Below, one piece after another: positions 1-11,232 of a DNA stretch of 64,000 bases (position 1 is its first letter; the number at the start of each line of letters is the position of its first letter). The stretch covers positions 1-64,000 of the forward strand of contig JAURVT010000052.1 of NCBI GenBank assembly GCA_030655315.1. The letters run 5' to 3'. This DNA comes from Nocardioidaceae bacterium (lineage in GTDB: Bacteria > Actinomycetota > Actinomycetes > Propionibacteriales > Nocardioidaceae). The position numbers were made by a program, and so were the translations under genes. The notes under the pieces were generated by a model, which made no database searches, was not told the DNA's origin, and saw only the letters and a list, made by a program, of their open reading frames with translations.

Positions 1-1
1 G

Positions 2-406
2 CCCCGGGCGCTGTGGCGACCCGTGGTCGACGGCGGCGTGCCGCGCTCGCGGGTGGCCCGGGTGCGCGCCCGGACCGAGCGGCAGGCCGCGCAGTGGGAC
101 TCACGCCTCACCGCCGACGAGCGCGCCCGGCGCGACCGGCCGTCCGACACCGACGCCGGGCAGGGGCCGCCGAGCATCTGGAGCCCACCGGTCCGCGTGG
201 TGGCCTACTCCGGCCTGGAGGCGGACCGCCGCCGCGCGAGCGTCACGGTGTGGGCGAGGTCGGGCGGGTCGGCCACCTGGATGCGTCGGGACGTCGCCCT
301 GCAGTGGGCGCGCGGCGACTGGCGGGTGCGGTTCCCGCTGCCGGCCGCCTGGAGCACCGAACCGCCCACGTCGGACATCCGTCCGATCTCGGCCCTATCG
401 CCCTAA
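2..406 (+). CDS. VirB8/TcpC-like protein, C-terminal part (5' end outside window)
   Basis: This is the last 134 residues of a gene that begins before the window; the frame is open from base 2 to the TAA at 404-406. The tail contains a run of alternating strands ending in LQWARGDWRVRFPLPAAW. The same W...GDWR pattern ends the fold of the protein encoded at 2063-2908, so both may carry the NTF2-like domain of VirB8/TcpC assembly proteins. It sits directly upstream of the secretion-type operon on the same strand. The family assignment is inference from the paralogue and context, because the N-terminal membrane anchor lies outside the window. Confidence 0.5.
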   Translation, partial: PRALWRPVVDGGVPRSRVARVRARTERQAAQWDSRLTADERARRDRPSDTDAGQGPPSIWSPPVRVVAYSGLEADRRRASVTVWARSGGSATWMRRDVALQWARGDWRVRFPLPAAWSTEPPTSDIRPISALSP

Positions 407-410
407 CCGG

Positions 411-466
411 GGGACGCCTCGACGGGGCGTCCCTCACACTGGGGAGACGCGATCGCCGATCGCGTC
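411..466. promoter_or_regulatory. two palindromes between secretion genes
   Basis: Two inverted repeats lie side by side in the 113-base gap. The first (411-433) pairs GGGACGCC with GGCGTCCC across a short loop. The second (446-466) has perfect 10-base arms, GACGCGATCG and its complement, around one central base. The first could attenuate transcription. The second has almost no loop, so it looks more like a protein-binding palindrome than a terminator hairpin. What binds it is unknown. Confidence 0.45.
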
Positions 467-519
467 AGGATCATGCACACACGGACGGGGGACGTCGGGT
501 GGCCGACGAGGAGCAGATG

Positions 520-1749
520 ATGAGCGGCGAGCAGTTCGCGCAGCGACGCAACGCCGCGCCGCCGGGCGCCGCGCACCAGCCGCCGCAGCAGCCCCCGGGG
601 CGCCGTGTCGCGCCGGAGGGCGAGCGTCCGCCGGGACCGCCGCCCCCGCCGCCCACCCAGCAGGGCGGACCGCCCCGCGTGCCCGAGCAGGGACCGCCGC
701 AGGGCCGTCCCACCGGCCCGCCGGCGCAGCACCGCGACGGACCTCCGCAGCAGGGCGGGTGGGGCCCGGCGCCCGCCGGCCCCCCGCCCGAGCAGCAGCA
801 CGCACCGGCCGGGCCGGTCTCGGCCGACGCCTTCCTCGAGGGTCGCCAGCGCACCGCCCCGCTCGGCCCCGCGACGTGGGGCTGGCGCGGCTGGGTCCGC
901 CGGCTGACGTTCGGCCTCGTCGCGCCCAGCATGGGCAAGGCCGAGCAGGCCCACAACCACGACCGCAGCGCCGTCCAGCGCTCGTTCGAGGGCCCCCGCA
1001 CGATCGTCTTCGTCAACCCCAAGGGGGGCGCGGCCAAGACCACCAGCGTGCTGATGTCGGGCTACACCTTCGGCACCGTGCGCGGCGGCGGCGTCGTCGC
1101 GTGGGACAACAACGAGACCCGCGGCACCCTGGGTGTCCGCGGTCTGCGGGCCAACCACAACAACACCGCGCGCGAGCTGCTCGCCGCCCGCGAGCGCTTC
1201 TCCGACGTGTTCCGCGCACGCCTGGGCGACCTCGGCGGCTACGTCCGCTCCCAGGGCGAGGCGCACTTCGACCTGCTCGCCTCCGACGAGCAGCCGGGTG
1301 TCACCGGCACCATCCATGCCGACGACTTCCGCAACCTGCACCACCTGCTGAACCGCTTCTACCGGATGGTGCTGGTCGACACCGGCAACAACATCCGGGC
1401 CGAGAACTGGCTCGCGGCCGTCGACTCCGCCGATCTCCTCGTGGTGACCACCACTGTGCGCGAGGACACCGGCTACTCAGGCCTGTGGATGCTCGACGCG
1501 CTCGTCGCCGAGGGGCGTCAGGACCTCGTCGCGCGGTCGATCACCGTCCTGTCCGACCCGGCCCAGACCGTCGACAAGGAGCTCGCGGCGTCGCTCACCG
1601 AGGCGTACGCCTCGCGGTCGCGGCACGTCGTGCGGGTGCCGTTCGACCCGGTGCTCGTGTCGGGCTCCGTCGTGGACTACAGCCGCCTGTCGCGGGGGAC
1701 GCGGGACGCCTGGCTGCGCGCGTGCGCGGCCATGGCCGAGGCCCTGTGA
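520..1749 (+). CDS. ParA/MinD-like ATPase with proline/glutamine-rich N-terminus
   Basis: This protein is about 409 residues. Residues 1 to about 115 are a disordered Pro/Gln/Gly-rich arm. From about residue 160 there is a SIMIBI ATPase domain with a deviant Walker A, VNPKGGAAKTTS (around 168), and an acidic DTGNN segment near 287 matching the Walker B/switch region. MinD/ParA ATPases place protein machines on membranes or DNA, so a role positioning or energising the transfer apparatus is inferred. The start chosen is the second of two adjacent ATGs, six bases after GAGGAG; GTG at 499 after GGGGGA is a fair alternative. The stop overlaps the next start by one base (TGATG). Confidence 0.75.
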   Translation: MSGEQFAQRRNAAPPGAAHQPPQQPPGRRVAPEGERPPGPPPPPPTQQGGPPRVPEQGPPQGRPTGPPAQHRDGPPQQGGWGPAPAGPPPEQQHAPAGPVSADAFLEGRQRTAPLGPATWGWRGWVRRLTFGLVAPSMGKAEQAHNHDRSAVQRSFEGPRTIVFVNPKGGAAKTTSVLMSGYTFGTVRGGGVVAWDNNETRGTLGVRGLRANHNNTARELLAARERFSDVFRARLGDLGGYVRSQGEAHFDLLASDEQPGVTGTIHADDFRNLHHLLNRFYRMVLVDTGNNIRAENWLAAVDSADLLVVTTTVREDTGYSGLWMLDALVAEGRQDLVARSITVLSDPAQTVDKELAASLTEAYASRSRHVVRVPFDPVLVSGSVVDYSRLSRGTRDAWLRACAAMAEAL

Positions 1750-2066
1750 TGCTCGCCGTGGTGCTGCCCGGAGCGGAGGACGGCGGCACCGGGTTCAACC
1801 CGTTCGACGGCATCTCGCCGAGCTTCGGGCCGTTCCAGGGCCTGTTCACCTCGCGCGTCGGCGTCTTCCTGGCGATCGTGTGGGCGGCGGCGTTCGTGTA
1901 CGTCGCGTTCTGCCTGCTCGTGGCCATCGCCCGCGTGGCGACGAGCCGCAGGGGCGGCTACGGCGACGACCTCGACGACGCCCGCAACCAGCTCATCCGC
2001 AACGCCGCCGCGGCCGTGCTCCTCGCCGCCGTCCCGGTGATCTTCGGGGTGCTCGTCGGCACATGA
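1749..2066 (+). CDS. small membrane protein with two helices, pilin-like candidate
   Basis: This is a 105-residue protein with two hydrophobic segments, about 35-58 (VGVFLAIVWAAAFVYVAFCL) and about 85-104 near the C-terminus, joined by a charged loop rich in Arg and Asp. Its start overlaps the upstream stop by one base and its own stop forms ATGA with the next gene. Size and two-helix layout resemble VirB2/TrbC-type small membrane subunits of type IV systems, and its place before a TrbL/VirB6-like channel fits. There is no diagnostic motif, so it could be any small accessory membrane protein of the complex. Confidence 0.55.
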   Translation: MLAVVLPGAEDGGTGFNPFDGISPSFGPFQGLFTSRVGVFLAIVWAAAFVYVAFCLLVAIARVATSRRGGYGDDLDDARNQLIRNAAAAVLLAAVPVIFGVLVGT

Positions 2067-2908
2067 GCGTCCGCATCGACGACCCGGACACCGCGCAGCC
2101 CTCCCGGGGCGGCGGGGTGCGCGCTGCCCTCGTGGTGGTGGTCGGGCTGGTCGTGGTGGGTCTGCTCGTGTGGTCGTTCGTGCCGGCCGGGGACGACCCC
2201 GCCGAGCGGTCCGACCGGTTGTCGCGCACCGGCGACACCACCGCGACGGGCAGCCTCGAGCGCGGCACGGCGTCGGCCGACCTCGCCGGCGCGACGCGTC
2301 AGGTGGCCGGGGTGCCCCGCGGGTTCCCCCAGACGGTCGACGGCGCCGTCGAGTCCTACGTCGCCTCCCTCGGCCTGTTCGCCGCCGGCATGGCCCGGTT
2401 GACGGCGGCCGAGCTGGCCACCTTCGTCCGCGACTTCACCGGCACCGACACCGACTACTCCGCCCTCGCCGCCGACAAGCGCGCCCTACTCGGGCTCGAC
2501 GACCAGGGCCGCGTGATCGACGGCCGGGCCGGCGACGCCGTGGTGTCGGCCTGCCCGCCCGACCTCGGCGCCTACCGGACGAGCGACGTCGCGCCCGCGG
2601 ACGGTGCACCGACGTCGGTCACCGTGTCGTACTGGGGTCCCTGCGTCTACGGCGTCGGGTCGACGACCCACCGCGAGCGTCTCGACGTGGTCTGGCAGCA
2701 GACCACGGCCACCATGACCTGGACGTCCGGCGACTGGCGGCTCGCGCCGGGTGCGCAGCCGCCCGCGGCCCGGGCGCCGTCGCCCACCGACCTCAACCGG
2801 CCCGACACGACCTTCGCCCAGCGGGCCGCCCTGCTCGGCGACGGCTGGTCGCTGTTCAGCGGGGCCTCGCAGGCCTGGCCCACCGAGCTGCTGGGGCAGG
2901 AGCCGTGA
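2063..2908 (+). CDS. single-pass membrane protein, VirB8-like
   Basis: This is a 281-residue protein with a short cytoplasmic N-terminus, one hydrophobic anchor (about 20-43, ALVVVVGLVVVGLLVWSFV) and a large extracytoplasmic domain. The end of that domain (RLDVVWQQTTATMTWTSGDW) resembles the tail of the truncated gene at 2-406. VirB8/TcpC proteins have this layout: an N-terminal helix and a periplasmic or external NTF2-like fold that scaffolds a type IV secretion channel. ATGA overlap at the start and GTGA overlap at the end indicate coupled translation. The function is inferred from layout and neighbours. Confidence 0.55.
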   Translation: MSVRIDDPDTAQPSRGGGVRAALVVVVGLVVVGLLVWSFVPAGDDPAERSDRLSRTGDTTATGSLERGTASADLAGATRQVAGVPRGFPQTVDGAVESYVASLGLFAAGMARLTAAELATFVRDFTGTDTDYSALAADKRALLGLDDQGRVIDGRAGDAVVSACPPDLGAYRTSDVAPADGAPTSVTVSYWGPCVYGVGSTTHRERLDVVWQQTTATMTWTSGDWRLAPGAQPPAARAPSPTDLNRPDTTFAQRAALLGDGWSLFSGASQAWPTELLGQEP

Positions 2909-4362
2909 GCGCGAGGCGCCTCCTCCTGGCGCTCCAGGCGCTGCTGATCGCCGTCGGTCTCGCCCTCCCCGCCCTCCCGGCCGCCGCCGAGGCGCCCGAC
3001 GTCTGCGCGACCAACCCGGCTGCCTGCACGGTCGGCACCACGCCGGGCATCGAGTCCTCCCCGTCGGTCGGCAGCGTCGACGACGGGTCGCAGGGCATCG
3101 TGTCGCCGAGCGTCGAGACCGAGCGGACGCTCGCCGCGATCAACGAGTTCACGCCGGAGAACGCCGTCGACTCCTGGGCCCAGGCGTCGGCCGAGGGCGC
3201 GGTCTCGATCCTCGGCAAGGTGTCGGCCTGGCAGGACCGCGTCACGACCCCCGCCTTCGACCGCTCGTGGTGGCGCGACCAGTACGCCGTGATGTTCGGC
3301 CTCAGCCTGATGCTGTTCGCCTTCATGCTCGTGATCGTGGTGGCACGCGTCGGCGGCCCGGACGGCTCGGTGCCCGCCGCCCAGCTGCTGCGCGACTCCG
3401 GTCTCAAGCTGTGGCTCGTCCCGGTGGTCCTCGCGATCGCCCCGATCGTCCTGTCGCTGGTCCAGGGCACCACGGCCGAGCTCGCACGCTCGTTCGCGTC
3501 CGAGACCGGTGACGGCGCCGGCGGGGCCACGTCGGAGTTCCTCGACCAGATGACCGCGGTGAGCGGTGGCTTCGACGCCTTCGGCGGCGCGATCCTGGCG
3601 CTGCTGGTGCTGATGGGCATCCTGGTGTTCTCGGTGCTGCTGCTCATCGAGGTGGCCGTGGCCAGCTGGGGCCTGAACCTGCTCGGCCTGGTGGTGCCGA
3701 TCGCCATCGTCATGCACGTGTACCCGCCGTGGAGGCGGCCGCTCGCGCGGATCGCCGGCCTGATGTTCGGGCTGATGTTCACGCCCGTCGCGGTGAACTT
3801 CGTCTACTGGACCTTCTTCTCCACGGCCCAGGACCTGACCGACGGCCTGGACCTGTTCGGCACCGCCCTGTTCCTGCTCATCGGCACCCTGCTGCTCTGC
3901 GCGGCGCCCGTGCTGCTCATGCAGCTGTTCACGGTGCTCGCCCCGCGCTTCGCCGGACCCGCGCCGGCGACGGCCGGCGGCCCGCGTGGCGACGGGCCGT
4001 CGGCACGGTCGGTGACGCGGCTGTCGGACCACTTCCGCACCAAGGAGGGCTTCGCGGCGCAGACGTCGATGGTGCACGCGCACGAGCGGTCGGCTGCCCC
4101 CGCCGCCGGGCCCTCCGGTGACGGGGCCGCCGGGCCGCGGACCCGCACCGTCGAGCGTCCCGACCCACCGCGGCGCGCGGCCGCGGTGGACCGTCCCGAG
4201 CGTGACCCCGACCCCGGGGTGGAGCCCGAGGCCGTGCGCGCCCACGAGGCGGTCGCCGCGCAGCTGGGCGGCAAGAACGCCGACGAGGCGTTCGACCCCG
4301 AGCCGTTCGACCCGCCGCCCGCGCCGGGAGAGCCGCGCGACGACGGGTGGTGGCACCGGTGA
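2905..4362 (+). CDS. TrbL/VirB6-like polytopic channel protein
   Basis: This is a 485-residue protein. The N-terminus has an Arg-Arg start, a hydrophobic core and an AAAEA-type cleavage region, consistent with a signal peptide of about 30 residues. Membrane helices follow at about 127-149, 167-186, 226-272 (probably two), 283-305 and 317-345. The last 130 residues are a charged, proline-rich cytoplasmic tail. This architecture matches TrbL/VirB6-type inner channel subunits of conjugation-like systems, including chromosomal actinobacterial ones encoded next to SCO6880-family genes. Start is GTG within a GTGA overlap, and the stop overlaps the next GTG. Confidence 0.7.
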   Translation: MSARRLLLALQALLIAVGLALPALPAAAEAPDVCATNPAACTVGTTPGIESSPSVGSVDDGSQGIVSPSVETERTLAAINEFTPENAVDSWAQASAEGAVSILGKVSAWQDRVTTPAFDRSWWRDQYAVMFGLSLMLFAFMLVIVVARVGGPDGSVPAAQLLRDSGLKLWLVPVVLAIAPIVLSLVQGTTAELARSFASETGDGAGGATSEFLDQMTAVSGGFDAFGGAILALLVLMGILVFSVLLLIEVAVASWGLNLLGLVVPIAIVMHVYPPWRRPLARIAGLMFGLMFTPVAVNFVYWTFFSTAQDLTDGLDLFGTALFLLIGTLLLCAAPVLLMQLFTVLAPRFAGPAPATAGGPRGDGPSARSVTRLSDHFRTKEGFAAQTSMVHAHERSAAPAAGPSGDGAAGPRTRTVERPDPPRRAAAVDRPERDPDPGVEPEAVRAHEAVAAQLGGKNADEAFDPEPFDPPPAPGEPRDDGWWHR

Positions 4363-5864
4363 GCACCGCGTCGTCGGGCGGACCGGGCGCCACCGTCAGC
4401 CTGCTGGGTGGCGAGACGCGTCGCCGCAACCTCTTCGGCTCGTTCAGCGGTGGCCAGGTGGCCGTCCTCACCGGAGCCAGCGTGCTCTGGCTGGTCGTCC
4501 TGCTGGTGTCGCAGTCGTTCCCGGTGCTGGTCGTCGGCGTGCTCGCGCTGCTCGGGCTGTCGTGGCTGCTGCGCCGCCAGGACTCCAGCGGCGACTCGTG
4601 GGGCCGCACGCGCGGCGAGGGCCTGTGGTTCTGGATGCGCCGTCGTCGCGAGCTGGACGTCTGGTCGCCCGGCGGCGACCTGCCCAGCGCCGTCGGCAGC
4701 TTCCGCGAGCTCACCTACGCCGACGACCCCGACGCCCCGCCGGTCGCGATCATCCACCAGCGCGACCGCGCCCAGCGGTTCGGCCCGCAGTCGACCCTGG
4801 TCGCGGTGCTCGAGATCGTCGGCGGCGGCGACGGCCTGCGCGAGGTCACCGAGGTCAACCGCCGCGGCTCCCGCTTCGGGCAGCTGCTCGGCACCCTGGC
4901 CTCGCCGGAGTCGCCCGTCGAGCAGATCGACATCGAGACCCGCGTGCTGCCGGCCGACCCGTCGGCCTACGCCGACGAGATGGCCGCGATGCTCGCCCCC
5001 GGCTGCCCGCCCGCGCTGCGCGCGAGCATGGAGCAGCTCGCCGCCCACGGCGCTGCCCAGACCGAGACCTACCGGACGTTCGCCACGGTGCGGATGCCGC
5101 TGGCCGCCGTGCAGGCGCGCGTCGTCGGACGCGTGGCGTCAGCCGAGGACACCGTCGTCGCCGCCGTGGACGCGCTGCGCGTCGTCGTCGACCGCCTCGA
5201 GCGGTCGGGCCACGTGGTGCGCGGCGTGCTCGGACCCCGGCGCATCGCCGCGATGGTGCGCCACCTGCACGTCCCGAGCTTCGGTCTGGACGATCTCGAC
5301 GGCCTCGAGCGGATCCGCGACGGGTGGGCCTTCCCCGTCGTCCCGATGCGTGACGCCGTGCGCGTCGACGGACCGGACGGGCCGTGGTTCCACGCGGTGG
5401 CCTCGGTGCCGCGCGACTCCTGGCCGATGGACGTGGTGGGCATGCGGTGGATGCAGAACCTCGTCACCGACGTGAACCCCGCGACCATCCGCACGGTCAA
5501 GGCACAGCACCGGCTCGTCCCCAAGCGCCTCGCGCGCGGCAAGGCGACGATCGGCCTGACGCTCGACACCGCGGCCATCCGCTCGCGGGAGAAGAAGCAG
5601 GCGGTCTCGACCGGTGAGGACGAGGCGTCGGCGACCGCGGCCCAGCGGGTGATGAACGACCTGCTCGGTGCCGGCACCGCGGGCGACCACGCCGCGGTGC
5701 GGATCATCGTCTCGGCTCCGGACCTCGCCGCGCTGCGGATCGCGCGGTCGGCGGTGTCGGCGGCGGCCGAGGACTCAGGCATCACCCGGCTGCGGTGGTA
5801 CGAGAACCGCCACCACCAGGCGCTCGTGCTCGGTGCGCCGCTCGCGAGGGGGATCCAGGCATGA
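4359..5864 (+). CDS. SCO6880-family protein of an actinobacterial type IV-like system
   Basis: This 501-residue protein has two closely spaced membrane helices near the N-terminus (about 29-72) and a long soluble remainder with no Walker motif that I can see. Order, length and the N-terminal helix pair match the SCO6880 family, a conserved but functionally uncharacterised component of actinobacterial conjugation/secretion loci. It lies between a TrbL-like channel and a VirB4-like ATPase, where PrgI/VirB3-type proteins sit in other systems, so a membrane adaptor for the ATPase is a reasonable inference. GTG at 4359 is chosen because it makes the GTGA overlap with the upstream stop. Confidence 0.75.
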   Translation: MSTASSGGPGATVSLLGGETRRRNLFGSFSGGQVAVLTGASVLWLVVLLVSQSFPVLVVGVLALLGLSWLLRRQDSSGDSWGRTRGEGLWFWMRRRRELDVWSPGGDLPSAVGSFRELTYADDPDAPPVAIIHQRDRAQRFGPQSTLVAVLEIVGGGDGLREVTEVNRRGSRFGQLLGTLASPESPVEQIDIETRVLPADPSAYADEMAAMLAPGCPPALRASMEQLAAHGAAQTETYRTFATVRMPLAAVQARVVGRVASAEDTVVAAVDALRVVVDRLERSGHVVRGVLGPRRIAAMVRHLHVPSFGLDDLDGLERIRDGWAFPVVPMRDAVRVDGPDGPWFHAVASVPRDSWPMDVVGMRWMQNLVTDVNPATIRTVKAQHRLVPKRLARGKATIGLTLDTAAIRSREKKQAVSTGEDEASATAAQRVMNDLLGAGTAGDHAAVRIIVSAPDLAALRIARSAVSAAAEDSGITRLRWYENRHHQALVLGAPLARGIQA

Positions 5865-5890
5865 GGGGCGAGGAGGTGCGGGTCAGGTGA
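5861..5890 (+). CDS. possible 9-codon coupling minicistron
   Basis: A 9-residue frame (MRGEEVRVR) opens with an ATGA overlap on the stop of the SCO6880-family gene and closes with a GTGA overlap on the start of the ATPase gene. Its Glu-Glu codons are GAGGAG, which is also the ribosome binding site for the ATPase gene. It could pass ribosomes from one gene to the next, or be a by-product of the Shine-Dalgarno sequence. It has no recognisable domain. Confidence 0.3.
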   Translation: MRGEEVRVR

Positions 5891-7332
5891 GCATGCTGCG
5901 TCCGCGCACGAGGGACGAGGCGCCCGCCGTCCCCGAGGAGCCCGCCGCGGAGGCGCCGGCACCCGAGCCGAGGCGACGCTCGTCGCGCCGGGCCCGCTGG
6001 CTCGACCGGCTGGGGCTGTACGAGGTGTCCGAGGAGACGATCTTCACCTCCACGCGCCAGGCGCAGGCGGTCAACCCCGCGCTGGTCGCGACCCACGCGC
6101 CGCTGGCGGGGCCCATCACCGGCGTCGACGTCGACACCGGCAACGCCGTCTCCAACGGCCCGCACGAGCTCTACGCGCAGCGGCGCATCACCTCGCCCAA
6201 CGTGGTCGTCCTCGGCGACGTCGGCTCCGCGAAGTCGTCGCTCGTGAAGACCGTGTACGTCGCCCGTGCCGTCGCGTGCGGCAAGCAGGTGGCGGTCTTC
6301 GACCGCAAGAACCAGGAGGGACGCGGGGAGTACGCCGACGTCGCCCGGGTCTGCGACGGCACCACCATCGCCTTCTCGCGCACCAAGGGCTCGGCCATCA
6401 ACCTGCTCGACCCGCGCATCTCGACGTCGTCGCGCGACGGCGACACCGACGCCCGCATCGGCCAGGACCGGCTGCTGCTGATGGCCGCCGAGTACGCGCA
6501 CGGACGGCTCAGCTCGCACGAGCACCACGCACTGCGCTCGGCCCACCGCACGGCGCTCGCCCGCGCCGGTGCCGACGGTCGCAACGCCACCATCCACGAC
6601 GTCGTCGACGCGCTCTACGCGCCCGAGGCCGACGCCGTGCCGCGCGCCCACCTCGCCGAGAGCGAGGTCGTCACCCCACGCGACGTCGTCGACTGGGGGA
6701 TGGCGCTCGCGATGGACCTGGAGCGGTTCGTCGACGGCGACCTGTCCGGCCTGATCGACGCCGACACCTCGGACTCGGTCGACTGGTCCGCACCACTGCT
6801 CGTGTTCGACACCTCCGAGCTCGACGAGGACTCACCCGCGCTGTCGCTGGTGATGGCGTTGGTGGCCACGTTCCTGTCGTCGGTGTGGGCCGCGCGACCC
6901 GGCCAGCGGATCATCGTGCTCGAGGAGGGCTACCACACGGCCCGCCTCACCGGCCCGGGCACGACGAGCGTCGCGGGCATCCTGCGCTCGCTCGTCAAGC
7001 GTGGACGCGGCATCGGCCTGGCGTTCGTCACCGTCATCCACCACGTGTCCGACCTGCCGCCCGACTCCGACGCGATGAGCCTCGTGCGCGAGGCGCAGGT
7101 GGTGCACGTGTACCGGCAGTCGCGCTCCGACGACGCCCGGACCGTGGTGTCGCTGTTCGGCCTGCCGTCGTGGTCCGAGGACCTGTTGCCCGCCGTCGAG
7201 CCGGGGGTGCACGTGCTGAAGGTCGGCAAGGAGCCCGCACGCCTCGTCCGGCACATCCGTACCCGGATCGAGGAGGGCTTCACCGACACCGACGCGGCGA
7301 TGACCGGGGCGCGCCGAGGCACCGCCTCCTGA
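5887..7332 (+). CDS. VirB4/TraC-like ATP-binding protein
   Basis: This is a 481-residue soluble ATPase. It has a Walker A motif GDVGSAKSSLVKT at about 110-122, where Ala replaces the usual Gly before Lys, and a Walker B motif RIIVLEEGYH near 340. Both fit the HerA/FtsK-type ATPases that drive type IV secretion (VirB4, TraC, VirD4). No membrane helix is visible, which favours a VirB4-like role over a VirD4-type coupling protein. The start is GTG at 5887, ten bases after GAGGAGG, overlapping the stop of the short frame upstream. It is the last gene of the operon and converges with the L,D-transpeptidase 11 bases away. Confidence 0.75.
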   Translation: MSMLRPRTRDEAPAVPEEPAAEAPAPEPRRRSSRRARWLDRLGLYEVSEETIFTSTRQAQAVNPALVATHAPLAGPITGVDVDTGNAVSNGPHELYAQRRITSPNVVVLGDVGSAKSSLVKTVYVARAVACGKQVAVFDRKNQEGRGEYADVARVCDGTTIAFSRTKGSAINLLDPRISTSSRDGDTDARIGQDRLLLMAAEYAHGRLSSHEHHALRSAHRTALARAGADGRNATIHDVVDALYAPEADAVPRAHLAESEVVTPRDVVDWGMALAMDLERFVDGDLSGLIDADTSDSVDWSAPLLVFDTSELDEDSPALSLVMALVATFLSSVWAARPGQRIIVLEEGYHTARLTGPGTTSVAGILRSLVKRGRGIGLAFVTVIHHVSDLPPDSDAMSLVREAQVVHVYRQSRSDDARTVVSLFGLPSWSEDLLPAVEPGVHVLKVGKEPARLVRHIRTRIEEGFTDTDAAMTGARRGTAS

Positions 7333-7343
7333 CCGGGCCCGCC

Positions 7344-8069
7344 TCAGCGGCCGATGGCGATGACGGGCTCGTACCGCGGGTGCAGCAGCTCCATCATGTC
7401 CTGCATGAAGGCCCGCGGGACCGACACGCAGCCGCCCGTCGCGCCGGAGCCGTTGACGTGCAGGAAGATCCCCGACCCCTTGCGCCTGACGGCCGTCGGC
7501 CGGTTGAAGTCGATGACGATCGCCCAGCGGTACTGGCTGCGGTAGGACGGCAGGTACTCCGAGCCGTTGCGCCGGCTCGACGGGAGCGCGTGCCGGAACC
7601 CGCCCTGGCTGCGGTTGCGCAGCTGGTTGTAGAACGCCGACGCGTTGTCCTGCACCCAGTAGTCGCCGGTGCGCACCCGGTGAAACGGCAGGTCGGTGCC
7701 CGCGGGCGCGGCGCTGTTGCCGAACGCCTCGCGCATCGCGTACGTGCCCGTCGGCGTGGTGCTCGTCCACTGCTTGCGCTCACTGCCCGCGACGAGTCCG
7801 CCGGACCCGATCCGGGCGTCGGTCGTGGTGCGCCGCGCGTCCCAGCCGGTGGAGGTCCTGCGCCAGTAGGTGACGCGGGCGCGCGTCCCCGAGCTGCGGT
7901 TGACGGTCACCACCTGCTGGGTGTCGGCGGCGAGCGTCACCCTCACCCCGCCGAGCGTGACGGTGCGCGTCGCGGCGTCGGCGGGCGGCGTCCCCACGCC
8001 CAGTGCCACCGCGACCACCAGCACCACGGCCGTCAGGAGCGGGACGGGCAGCTGCAGGCGTCGGCTCAC
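7344..8069 (-). CDS. secreted L,D-transpeptidase (YkuD fold)
   Basis: This is a 241-residue protein with a signal peptide (VSRRLQLPVPLLTAVVLVVA, cleavage near ADA-AT) and a C-terminal YkuD domain. The catalytic stretch FLHVNGSGATGGCVSVPR carries the His and the nucleophilic Cys expected of L,D-transpeptidases. These enzymes make 3-3 peptidoglycan cross-links or attach proteins outside the membrane. GTG at 8069 is chosen for its 8-base distance from GGGGAGG; GTG at 8072 is possible. The 5' side abuts the MITE-like element at 8115-8323. It converges on the secretion operon, so a cell-wall remodelling link is possible but not shown. Confidence 0.85.
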   Translation of the reverse strand: MSRRLQLPVPLLTAVVLVVAVALGVGTPPADAATRTVTLGGVRVTLAADTQQVVTVNRSSGTRARVTYWRRTSTGWDARRTTTDARIGSGGLVAGSERKQWTSTTPTGTYAMREAFGNSAAPAGTDLPFHRVRTGDYWVQDNASAFYNQLRNRSQGGFRHALPSSRRNGSEYLPSYRSQYRWAIVIDFNRPTAVRRKGSGIFLHVNGSGATGGCVSVPRAFMQDMMELLHPRYEPVIAIGR

Positions 8070-8114
8070 CACCCCATCCTCCCCGACCGGGCGGGTCGGC
8101 GTCCCGTCCTGGTG

Positions 8115-8323
8115 TCGGATTCCCAGGTAGGCACGGGTTTCCGACGCAACCGCGGCGAGCTCTCCGTGGTCCCGTCGGTCCTCCATGCCGAGTGGGGCCG
8201 CCGGGACGGGTGGGACGACGTCGTCGTCCGCGTCACTCCTGCACCACCTGGCACGGAGAACCGGACCGATACCCGGGAAGTTCTCCGTGGTTCCGTCGGA
8301 AGTCCCCGCCTACCTGGGAATCG
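8115..8323 (-). repeat. MITE-like palindromic element, copy A
   Basis: This is a roughly 209-base non-coding element. Its left end is the 22-base terminal sequence starting TCGGATTCCCAGGTAGGC. The right end carries the inverse, GCCTACCTGGGAATC, with the outermost bases decayed. Inside, the arms contain GAGCTCTCCGTGG and GAAGTTCTCCGTGG segments able to form hairpins. It aligns along most of its length with the reverse complement of the element at 34070-34310. No transposase is encoded. The right terminal repeat runs into the PaaX-like gene and provides its stop codon. Confidence 0.8.
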
Positions 8324-9161
8324 TGGGACGGGAGGGGCGGACGAGGTCGCGCACCCAGGCGCGGGCCGGGGGGAGGTGGTGGGCGCGGGCGGTGGCGACG
8401 AGGGCGAGGCTGCGGGTGCCGGGCCAGTCCGGGGGGAGCAGGTGGGGTGGCAGGCCCGGGTCGAGCGACGGGATCGTGCGCCAGGCGTCGACGAGCCGCG
8501 CCAGGTGGACGAACGACGCCCGGCCGTCCGACGGCTCGGGCGAGTCGGCGTGCGCGTCGAGGAAGGCGAGGTGGCGGGCGGCGACGGCGTCGAGGTCCCA
8601 CCAGCGACGGACCACGTCGACCAGCGGCACGGGCGTCCCGACCTCGCGGCACGCGAACGTCGTCACGTGGTCGCGCAGGCCGAGGCCGTCCACCACGGCG
8701 TCGACGTCGGACGCGCGGTGGGCGGGCGCGACCCACAGCCCGGACGACACGGTCCCGCAGCCGGCCCAGGCCAGCTGCCGGCGCAGCTGGTGACGGTCGC
8801 CGCGCCGGTCCTCGGGGATGCTGAACGAGACGAGCAGCCAGCCGTCGTCGGGGCCGGCGCCGGGGCCGAAGATGCGGGTGTCGCCGCGCTCGAGCATCGA
8901 CGCCGCCCGGCCGCTCAGCGCGTAGCCGCTGCGCCCGTCGCGGGGCTCGGCCACCAGCACGCCGCGGGTCTTGAGCCGACCGACCGCCACCCGGGTGCTG
9001 TCGGCCGGCACGTCGAGCGCCTCGAGCAGCCGGACGAGGTCGGCCACCGCGACCCAGCCGCCGAGGTCGCGCAGGTGGGTGCCGAGCACCGTCCGCACCA
9101 GGGACGTGACGCTGCCCGGCCGGGAGTCGACGTCGTCGAGCCCGGCGCGGTCGTCGCTCAC
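8310..9161 (-). CDS. PaaX-family transcriptional regulator in the kynurenine operon
   Basis: This is a 283-residue protein with an N-terminal winged helix (about 15-75, with STRVAVGRLKTRGVLV as the recognition region). A central domain has the PaaX-type stretch DDGWLLVSFSIPEDRRGDRHQLRRQL, followed by a C-terminal alpha-helical domain. PaaX proteins repress aromatic catabolic genes and are relieved by aryl-CoA thioesters. The GTGA overlap with kynU implies co-transcription, so it probably regulates tryptophan breakdown, perhaps through anthraniloyl-CoA; that effector is inference. Its last residues, TIPR, and the TAG stop are encoded by the terminal repeat of element A, so the native C-terminus may have been altered. 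Confidence 0.75.
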   Translation of the reverse strand: MSDDRAGLDDVDSRPGSVTSLVRTVLGTHLRDLGGWVAVADLVRLLEALDVPADSTRVAVGRLKTRGVLVAEPRDGRSGYALSGRAASMLERGDTRIFGPGAGPDDGWLLVSFSIPEDRRGDRHQLRRQLAWAGCGTVSSGLWVAPAHRASDVDAVVDGLGLRDHVTTFACREVGTPVPLVDVVRRWWDLDAVAARHLAFLDAHADSPEPSDGRASFVHLARLVDAWRTIPSLDPGLPPHLLPPDWPGTRSLALVATARAHHLPPARAWVRDLVRPSRPTIPR

Positions 9162-10381
9162 CGGCCCGCGAGCTCGTCGCGCACGGCTTCGACGCCCGTC
9201 AGCAGCTCGCCGAAGCCGGTGCTCAGCGGGCTGAGCCCGAGGCGCAGGCCCATCGGCGCGCGGAAGTCGGGGATCACGCCGCGCGTCCACAGCGCCGCGG
9301 TGACCTCGCGGAACGACGGGTGGTCGAGCGTGACGTGGCCGCCGCGCTCGGACGGCTCGCGTGGCGTGGCGAGCTCGACGCCCAGCGGGGCCAGCAGCTC
9401 GTCGGACGCCTCGATCGCGAGCGCCGTCAGCAGCACCGACTTCTCGCGGACGGCGCCGATCCCGACCTCGGCGAGGAGGTCGAGCGTGTCCTTCATGGCG
9501 AGCATGCCGAGCACGGGCGGGGTGCCGCTGATGACGCGACGGATCCCGGCGGCCGGCTGGTACCCCGGCCCCATCGCGAACGCGTCCGCCCGTCCCATCC
9601 AGCCCTGCACGGGCTGGCGGAACTCCTCCTGGTGCTCGGCGCGCACGTAGGCGAACGCCGGCGAGCCCGGCCCGCCGTTCAGGTACTTGTAGGTGCACCC
9701 CACGGCGAGGTCGACGCCCCATGCGTCCAGCTCGACCGGCACCGAGCCGACCGAGTGCGACAGGTCCCACAGGACGAGCGCGCCCGCCTCGTGCGCCAGC
9801 GCGGTGATGGCGGCGACGTCGGCGAGGTGGCCCGACCGGTAGGCCACGTGGCTGAGCACGACCAGGGCCGTCCGCTCGGACAGCACGGGCGCCAGCTGCT
9901 CGGCGCGGACGCCGTCGCGCGGGTCGGTCTCGACCCAGCGCAGCGTCAGTCCCAGCTCGTCGGCGATGCCCTCGAGGACGTAGCGGTCGGTCGGGAAGTT
10001 GTCGGTGTCGAGCACCACCTCGTCGCGTCCGGGGCGCAGCGCGACGCCGCCGCGCGCGAGCTTGTAGAGCAGCACGGTCGTGGAGTCGCCGACCGTCACC
10101 TGGCCCGCGGCCGCGCCGAGGACGACGTCGCCGAGGCGGTCGCCGATCGCCAGCGGCAGGTCGAACCACTGCTCGTCCCAGCCGCGGATGAGCCGCCCGG
10201 CCCACGCGTCGGTCACGAACGACGTGATCCGCTCGGCGCTCGCCCGGAGCGGCCGGCCGAGGGAGTTGCCGTCGAGGTAGGCGACGACGTCGTCGTCCGG
10301 CCCGCGCAGGAACAGGTCGCGGTGCGCGCCCAGCGGGTCGGCGGCGTCCAGGTCGGCGGCGCGCGACGTCAGCGAGCTCAT
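9158..10381 (-). CDS. kynU: kynureninase
   Basis: This is a 407-residue fold-type I PLP enzyme that cleaves kynurenine (or 3-hydroxykynurenine) to anthranilate and alanine. Visible marks are YLDGNSLGR near the N-terminus, LVLWDLSHSVGSVPV (PLP-pyridine Asp) and the Schiff-base lysine in CTYKYLNGGPG, all typical of kynureninase. Length is normal for the family. The ATG overlaps the kynA stop (ATGA) and the gene ends in a GTGA overlap with the PaaX-like regulator. No formamidase (kynB) is seen beside it, so N-formylkynurenine hydrolysis must be encoded elsewhere. Confidence 0.93.
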   Translation of the reverse strand: MSSLTSRAADLDAADPLGAHRDLFLRGPDDDVVAYLDGNSLGRPLRASAERITSFVTDAWAGRLIRGWDEQWFDLPLAIGDRLGDVVLGAAAGQVTVGDSTTVLLYKLARGGVALRPGRDEVVLDTDNFPTDRYVLEGIADELGLTLRWVETDPRDGVRAEQLAPVLSERTALVVLSHVAYRSGHLADVAAITALAHEAGALVLWDLSHSVGSVPVELDAWGVDLAVGCTYKYLNGGPGSPAFAYVRAEHQEEFRQPVQGWMGRADAFAMGPGYQPAAGIRRVISGTPPVLGMLAMKDTLDLLAEVGIGAVREKSVLLTALAIEASDELLAPLGVELATPREPSERGGHVTLDHPSFREVTAALWTRGVIPDFRAPMGLRLGLSPLSTGFGELLTGVEAVRDELAGR

Positions 10382-11232
10382 CGGCCGATCTCCGTCCGGG
10401 CGGCGAACAGCTCGGGGAAGAAGGTGAGGTCGAGCGCCTTCTGCAGGTACCCGACGCCGCTGGAGCCGCCGGTGCCGCGCTTGCCGCCGATGATCCGGGT
10501 GACGGTGCGGACGTGCCGGAACCGCCACAGCTGGAAGTTCTCCTCGAGGTCGACCAGCTCCTCGAACGCCTCGTACGCCTCCCAGTGCTCGGCCGGCCGC
10601 TCGTAGATGCCGACGATCAGCGGGAGCAGCTCGTCGCGCAGGGTCCACGGCTCGCGGACGTCGCGCTCGAGGACGGACGCGGGCACGTCCAGGCCGGTCC
10701 GGGCGAGGTGGCGCCAGAAGGCGTCGTAGAGGGTGGGCGCGTCGAGCAGCGCGGCGAGGTCGGCGTGCGCGGCGGGGTCGGTGTCGAAGACCGCCATCGC
10801 CCTCGGGTCCTTGTTGCCGAGGATGAACTCGACGGCCCGGTACTGCGCGGACTGGAAGCCCGACGACGTCCCGAGGTCGTCGCGGAACTCGGCGTACTCG
10901 CTCGGGGTGAGGGTGGCGAGCACCGTCCACGCCTCGGCGAGGGTGCGCTGGACGTGCTTGACGCGGGCGACGCCCTTGAGCGCGCGGCCGAGGTCGTCGA
11001 CGTCCAGCGCCTCGACGGCGGCGCGCAGCTCGTGCAGCACCAGCTTGAACCACAGCTCGGTGGTCTGGTGCTGGACGATGAAGAGCATCTCGTCGTGGTG
11101 CTCGGGCCGGCTCACGGGCTTCTGGGCGCTGAGCAGCGCGGGGAGGTGCAGGTACTCGGCGTAGCTCATCCGGCCGGAGAGGTCGGTGACGACGCCGGCC
11201 TCCATCGGTCGGGTGCCGGTGCTGGGGTCCAT
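10378..11232 (-). CDS. kynA: tryptophan 2,3-dioxygenase
   Basis: This 284-residue heme enzyme oxidises tryptophan to N-formylkynurenine, the first step of the pathway. Family signatures are FIVQHQTTELWFKLVLHEL, SGFQSAQYR and the C-terminal FRHVRTVTRIIGGKRGTGGSSG, which holds the proximal heme histidine and the substrate-binding loop. It is the promoter-proximal gene of the kynA-kynU-PaaX operon. The ATG at 11232 fits the usual TDO N-terminus. A direct repeat lies just upstream at 11247-11276. The gene is intact. Confidence 0.95.
   Translation of the reverse strand: MDPSTGTRPMEAGVVTDLSGRMSYAEYLHLPALLSAQKPVSRPEHHDEMLFIVQHQTTELWFKLVLHELRAAVEALDVDDLGRALKGVARVKHVQRTLAEAWTVLATLTPSEYAEFRDDLGTSSGFQSAQYRAVEFILGNKDPRAMAVFDTDPAAHADLAALLDAPTLYDAFWRHLARTGLDVPASVLERDVREPWTLRDELLPLIVGIYERPAEHWEAYEAFEELVDLEENFQLWRFRHVRTVTRIIGGKRGTGGSSGVGYLQKALDLTFFPELFAARTEIGR

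Follow-up and report, generated by a model that had tools for sequence, protein, structure and literature searches.

A chromosomal type IV secretion-like operon of probable plasmid descent, without VirD4 or MobF genes, in a Nocardioidaceae bacterium

Introduction

According to a 2025 review, nearly all known functions of Gram-positive type IV secretion systems (T4SSs) are confined to DNA translocation, and dedicated Gram-positive effector T4SSs are a long-standing question; the section of the review on machines without the coupling protein VirD4 names Gram-negative systems only (PMC12857230). These VirD4-less machines, namely Ptl, Brucella VirB, ComB, and Bartonella Trw, serve two-step toxin export, effector export, DNA uptake, and supposed pilus display, respectively (PMC12857230). 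In Streptomyces, normal sporulation and chromosome segregation depend on the chromosomal cmd operon; deleting it left the transfer of an SLP2-derived plasmid unchanged, and cmdA (SCO4126) was dispensable for sporulation (PMC2782261). Here we analyzed an operon at the beginning of a stretch of 64,000 nucleotides from a Nocardioidaceae bacterium (GenBank assembly GCA_030655315.1, contig JAURVT010000052.1, positions 1 to 64,000 of the forward strand), hereafter the window. An earlier note, made from the sequence alone, had read this operon as a type IV-like secretion locus with a ParA/MinD-like ATPase. We consider it moderately likely that the operon derives from a plasmid T4SS, now resides in the chromosome without VirD4, and has been retained for a role outside ordinary conjugation.

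Results

The first 7.3 kb of the window carry seven open reading frames (ORFs), all on one strand, where the earlier note had placed them. The window is contig C20 of the assembly from base 1, and the start of the contig cuts the first gene. The genes, together with the one on the right flank, are as follows.

g1, 2-406, + strand: probable VirB8-like lipoprotein, C-terminal 134 amino acids only; the ORF runs off the contig start
g2, about 517-1749, + strand: EspI/MinD-like ATPase with a proline-rich N-terminus and the deviant Walker A motif KGGAAKTT
g3, 1749-2066, + strand: protein of 105 amino acids with two transmembrane (TM) segments, perhaps VirB2-like
g4, 2063-2908, + strand: VirB8-like protein, one TM helix and an NTF2-like domain
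g5, 2905-4362, + strand: TrbL/VirB6-like channel protein
g6, 4347-5864, + strand: SCO6880-family protein, probably a VirB3-like hairpin and a VirB4 N-terminal domain
g7, about 5887-7332, + strand: VirB4 ATPase domain, start codon uncertain
L,D-transpeptidase (YkuD), 7344-8186, - strand: right flank of the insertion, outside the operon; YkuD match above cut-off

Neighboring genes overlap at the g2/g3, g3/g4, g4/g5, and g5/g6 junctions, with gaps of about 110 nt between g1 and g2 and about 22 nt between g6 and g7. The description of seven overlapping genes was therefore right in number but slightly overstated as to overlap. An operon with VirB8-like, ATPase, TrbL-like, SCO6880, and VirB4-like genes, as had been claimed, is real, with family evidence far above chance. 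The convergent L,D-transpeptidase gene lies 11 bp past g7.

The operon is co-linear with one on plasmid NZ_CP108407 of Kitasatospora sp. NBC_01302, with identities of 67% for VirB4 and 57% for the ParA-like g2 product. The Kitasatospora operon continues with a small protein and then VirD4, and a MobF relaxase gene lies nearby. The same gene set is held by a contig of a Streptomycetaceae metagenome-assembled genome (MAG). A VirB4 tree was built from 30 ungapped sequences, some of them on long branches, including one (Tessaracoccus) within the clade of five to which the window belongs. The window protein was sister to those of the Kitasatospora plasmid and the MAG (96/87) inside this clade (100/100), and the Streptomyces-type chromosomal cmd clade stood apart. 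These computed sequence relationships trace the operon back to a transfer operon of conjugative plasmids of the MobF type. A locus with EspI-like ATPase, TrbL, SCO6880, and VirB4 genes was also seen in two related genomes, G323 and G447 (loci L092, L093, L117, and L118), adjoining a TM-anchored P-loop ATPase and an SSB-like ORF in both and a tyrosine-integrase-like ORF in G447. These loci are probably integrative conjugative elements (ICEs) that lack the VirD4 of the plasmid family. They were considered as further VirD4-less operons and dropped, being ICE-like, with the integrase-like ORF in G447 and another P-loop ATPase.

The upstream side of the operon was found by searching the genome with the Kitasatospora accessory proteins, which matched the start of contig C26 (41%, E=2e-34). 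This contig end carries a divergent gene for an SLT-M23 wall hydrolase (C26:446-1474; both SLT and M23 over cut-off), 76 bp from a lipoprotein-like ORF. The latter occupies C26 bases 369-1 on the minus strand (locus L056), is open at the contig end, and supplies the N-terminal part of g1. Beyond the hydrolase lie genes for a TM protein, DUF1697, serA, and other housekeeping functions. In three related genera (genomes G020, G007, and G030) the order is FMN oxidoreductase, L,D-transpeptidase, TM protein, DUF1697, and serA, in the orientations of C20 and reversed C26, with other genes between the FMN oxidoreductase and the L,D-transpeptidase in G020. This conserved gene order of the flanks proves that C26 and C20 are neighbors, and a block of roughly 9 kb, with the SLT-M23 gene at one end and VirB4 at the other, has been inserted between the TM-protein and L,D-transpeptidase genes. 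The corresponding interval in the related genera holds little, or at least one other gene. The site is cleanly empty in G020 and occupied by genes for a regulator and a transporter-like protein in G030, and thus varies. In the window, genes for a PaaX-type regulator, kynureninase, and tryptophan dioxygenase (8310-11232) separate the L,D-transpeptidase from the FMN oxidoreductase; they are not at that place in G020, G007, or G030, and this flank is variable too.

Homology by itself gave no significant support for joining the two halves of g1, and the join was made by synteny. Both contig ends at the gap have 79-80% GC, which could plausibly have broken the assembly with no repeat involved. An insertion sequence or similar repeat was considered as the cause of the contig end and rejected, as no second full copy of the first 400 bp exists in the genome. 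The flanking genes, which the earlier note had called ordinary chromosomal functions, are housekeeping genes on both sides in an order conserved in relatives, and the upstream DNA, on which the decision had been said to depend, carries the wall hydrolase and the start of the lipoprotein gene with no enclosing element.

No VirD4 gene lies beside the operon or after g7. Across the whole genome, a VirD4-type profile gave nothing better than E=0.011 and tblastn with the Kitasatospora VirD4 gave no match. No relaxase gene of any kind lies beside the operon, and a genome-wide profile search for the TrwC/MobF family found none. The block contains no integrase, the C26 side included, no direct repeats longer than 14 bp flank the operon, and there are no tRNA genes in the window. 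The statement that relaxase, coupling protein, integrase, and plasmid genes are missing thus extends to the upstream side on C26. An ICE with att sites and a relaxase enclosing the operon was looked for and not found; it was rejected on the flanks, the repeats, and the tRNA genes, in line with the earlier view that the operon is not part of a complete mobile element.

Alternatively, the operon might be what is left of a conjugative plasmid or ICE that integrated and is now decaying, its relaxase, VirD4, and integration genes having gone first and the rest having fallen out of use. The missing genes are exactly those for DNA handling that flank the homologous plasmid operons, and the insertion stands alone at a variable spot and is absent in relatives, as such a remnant might. 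However, no in-frame stop or frameshift was found in the readable part of the eight genes, wall hydrolase included, and what remains is a coherent channel with a hydrolase and without replication or transposase debris. The GC content at third codon positions of the operon genes was 0.94-0.98, as in host genes, compared with 0.79-0.87 in the homologous MAG genes. In codon use, the operon genes differed from host genes about as little as host genes differ among themselves, with more noise in the short genes. Since the frames are intact and codon use is host-like, the data argue for long residence with reading frames kept, and decay is an unlikely explanation.

A match to PF12696 on contig C12 was considered as the VirD4 of the operon and rejected, as it sits on an unrelated low-GC island. 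This island, at about 30.2-53.5 kb beside a tRNA-Met gene (loci L035 and L036), carries a recombinase-like ORF, a Replic_Relax protein adjoining a TrwB-like ATPase, and type I restriction-modification genes. It resembles a mobilizable element, and no T4SS was seen within the stretch read. Conceivably, the operon could still move DNA as a helper channel, with the coupling protein and relaxase provided in trans by another element such as this island, whose TrwB-like ATPase, Replic_Relax protein, and recombinase-like ORF come without a T4SS of their own. Moreover, the P-loop ATPase of the ICE-like loci in G323 and G447, which adjoins the same EspI-like ATPase, SCO6880, and VirB4 genes, has a short local similarity to the C12 ATPase. 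However, codon use and GC of the island differ sharply from those of the operon, hence each was acquired separately; the C12 protein is not recognized by the VirD4 profile of this T4SS group; and in the plasmid relatives VirD4 lies within the operon. We regard this arrangement as improbable.

Vertical descent as an orthologue of the Streptomyces cmd cluster, with roles in differentiation and chromosome segregation, would fit the shared VirB8-like, TrbL, SCO6880, and VirB4 core, the chromosomal location, the divergent SLT hydrolase of some Streptomyces-like chromosomes, and the unaffected transfer of the tested plasmid after cmd deletion (PMC2782261), but it is very improbable and was rejected by the VirB4 tree and gene content. 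The window VirB4 groups with MobF plasmids and is 36-37% identical to cmd-type proteins; in the cmd-type loci read, a VirD4-like gene is present and a ParA-like gene is lacking, the opposite of what the window shows; and sister genera do not have the operon at this site. The last gene of the cmd loci (L094-L098) is VirD4-like and scored 85-180 bits with the plasmid VirD4 profile; by gene order, we equate it with cmdA, the single cmd gene that has no sporulation phenotype.

The ParA-like product of g2 had been described as an unusual partner for such a locus. Instead, it is standard in these operons, being encoded in or beside the operon in nearly every plasmid relative read: a homologue heads or adjoins the SCO6880/VirB4 genes in Kitasatospora, Mycetocola, Tessaracoccus, Cellulosimicrobium, Rhodococcus, Microbacterium, and Paenarthrobacter, and tblastn with g2 found matches in 432 plasmids. 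The protein carries a KGGxxKT motif, and its ParA hits were all sub-threshold. A profile of the T4SS-linked g2 family scored 134 and 152 bits against two EspI/MinD-like proteins, and 18-27 bits against ParA/Soj partition proteins encoded on plasmids of the same kinds. One of the two EspI-like proteins is encoded between espG and eccD in a type VII secretion (ESX) locus of a Mycolicibacterium plasmid, and the other is annotated EspI in Rhodococcus opacus. A role as the ParA of plasmid or chromosome partition was therefore rejected, on these scores and on the lack of a parB gene in the operon. The second lysine of the Walker A motif is absent in the nearest homologues, KGGAGTTT in Kitasatospora and KGGASTTT in the MAG (loci L031 and L041), and is kept in the window protein.

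The g6 product scored 72.2 bits against the SCO6880 family model NF042935 (cut-off 60). VirB4-type models of NCBIfam matched g7 with E-values down to 4e-10, and a profile of g7 and its kin found the solved VirB4 structure 4ag5 (E=2e-13). The Kitasatospora relative of g6 matched PrgI over its N-terminal TM region (E=9e-5), and weak VirB3 matches were found in 2 of 13 SCO6880-family members. An AlphaFold model of g6 was poor (three sequences; mean pLDDT 42); in a search of 350,542 PDB chains, its best hits were the VirB4 chains of the R388 T4SS (probability 0.96, E=0.016). As g7 covers no more of VirB4 than the ATPase half, the simplest reading is a split VirB4, in which g6 is likely VirB3 plus the VirB4 N-domain and g7 the C-terminal ATPase half. 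One SCO6880-family member also matched the type VII secretion protein EccE weakly (E=0.0045), which may be a second link between the two kinds of system besides the EspI-like ATPase. When 177 plasmids with a g7-type match were typed with MOB-suite, 98 were called non-mobilizable, 69 mobilizable, and 10 conjugative, and the Kitasatospora plasmid was labelled non-mobilizable despite its T4SS, VirD4, and MobF genes. Standard tools may thus miss the split VirB4 class. A 2011 survey reported that actinobacteria have many relaxases and few T4SSs (PMC3158045), and the split VirB4 may partly account for those few T4SSs and for the few conjugative calls of MOB-suite.

The remaining genes would encode the other channel components. 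Each half of g1 matched VirB8-like proteins weakly, and g1 had no match in the plasmid collection. With C26 included, as is needed to judge it, g1 probably encodes a VirB8-like lipoprotein. A g3 homologue occupies the same position in the plasmid operons, and its role is perhaps VirB2-like. The g4 product was 33% identical to a Kitasatospora plasmid protein and matched a profile of the VirB8-like proteins of Streptomyces cmd loci (E=4e-6 at Z=10,000). Its domain was modelled as NTF2-like with modest confidence, in the arrangement of one TM helix plus domain known from VirB8 and TcpC, and the PDB neighbors of the model included the Gram-positive VirB8-like proteins TcpC, OrfG, and PrgL, none below E=0.001. 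The g5 product has seven hydrophobic segments and matched Pfam TrbL (E=3.5e-4, under the curated cut-off of Pfam), and a g5 homologue was present in all plasmid operons read.

Discussion

Gene content and order, plasmid ancestry, insertion site, and the absence of MobF and of a VirD4 of this family were all computed, and among the readings of the locus we favor that of a domesticated machine. Several points weigh against it. MobF was the only relaxase family searched genome-wide with a profile, and the genome does encode one coupling-like protein, the distant TraG/TrwB-like ATPase on contig C12. No substrate or accessory effector gene was identified. The gap between C26 and C20 is unsequenced and falls within g1. 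The operon is available from one genome only, and some of its divergence and codon adaptation may be older than the integration. A more specific proposal is put forward tentatively as one possibility: a functional Gram-positive T4SS, fixed in the chromosome, that needs neither coupling protein nor relaxase, has as its gate an EspI-like ATPase in common with type VII secretion, and serves to export proteins, take up DNA, or form a surface structure rather than to conjugate.

We infer that the operon is functional, and on that footing its working may be pictured as follows. The plasmid-derived operon would have inserted with the L,D-transpeptidase gene on one side and the serA cluster on the other, VirD4 and the relaxase being either absent at arrival or lost later. 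Its eight genes in about 9 kb would then specify a compact chromosomal type IV secretion-like machine, in which the SLT-M23 hydrolase, as a VirB1-like enzyme, would open the wall, the VirB8 and VirB6 proteins would make the envelope channel, and the split VirB4 would drive assembly or movement of the small subunit. The EspI-like ATPase may gate the machine. A reported effect of EspI is to reduce ESX-1 secretion under low ATP (as cited in PMC11302016), hence energy-dependent gating by g2 is, by analogy, a reasonable guess. Without VirD4, such a machine could not by itself load a relaxase-DNA complex, and it would therefore most likely handle substrates that bypass VirD4, or build a surface structure, as has been proposed for Ptl, ComB, and Bartonella Trw in Gram-negative bacteria.

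The ParA-like gene falls away as a novelty, and what remains is a possible new use of the machine that can be tested. The operon looks as though its DNA-loading parts had been deleted naturally. It sits at a defined place in the chromosome and has relatives in which that site is empty, which makes the question of Gram-positive effector systems testable. It is a candidate for a secretion or surface machine put to a new purpose, of which hardly any case is known in Gram-positive bacteria.

Compared with known systems, the locus is most readily set beside the T4SS group of MobF plasmids from Kitasatospora, Rhodococcus (pDND3B), Cellulosimicrobium (pTL2A), Tessaracoccus, Miniimonas (pS16-1), Microbacterium, and Mycetocola. 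Both share the gene order of EspI-like ATPase, small TM protein, VirB8-like protein, TrbL, SCO6880, and VirB4, and several of the plasmids also have the divergent SLT-type hydrolase. In the plasmids, however, VirD4 continues the operon and most of those read carry MobF, whereas the window locus has neither, lies in the chromosome, and includes, on the operon strand, a lipoprotein gene flanked by those for the hydrolase and the ATPase. Streptomyces cmdABCDEF (SCO4126-4131) likewise has chromosomal VirB8-like, TrbL, SCO6880, and VirB4 genes, but it belongs to a separate VirB4 clade, includes a VirD4-like gene, and has no EspI-like ATPase. The EspI/MinD-like ATPases of ESX loci share motifs around the deviant Walker A with the g2 family; they sit in type VII loci, whereas g2 sits in a T4SS operon, and this ATPase ties the type IV loci of actinobacteria to their type VII loci. 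Finally, Ptl of Bordetella pertussis, VirB of Brucella, ComB of Helicobacter pylori, and Trw of Bartonella resemble the window operon in having a T4SS core without a coupling protein. These are diderm machines with outer-membrane parts, and the likeness, drawn from gene content, suggests by analogy that the operon may have been turned, as they were, to a non-conjugative use.

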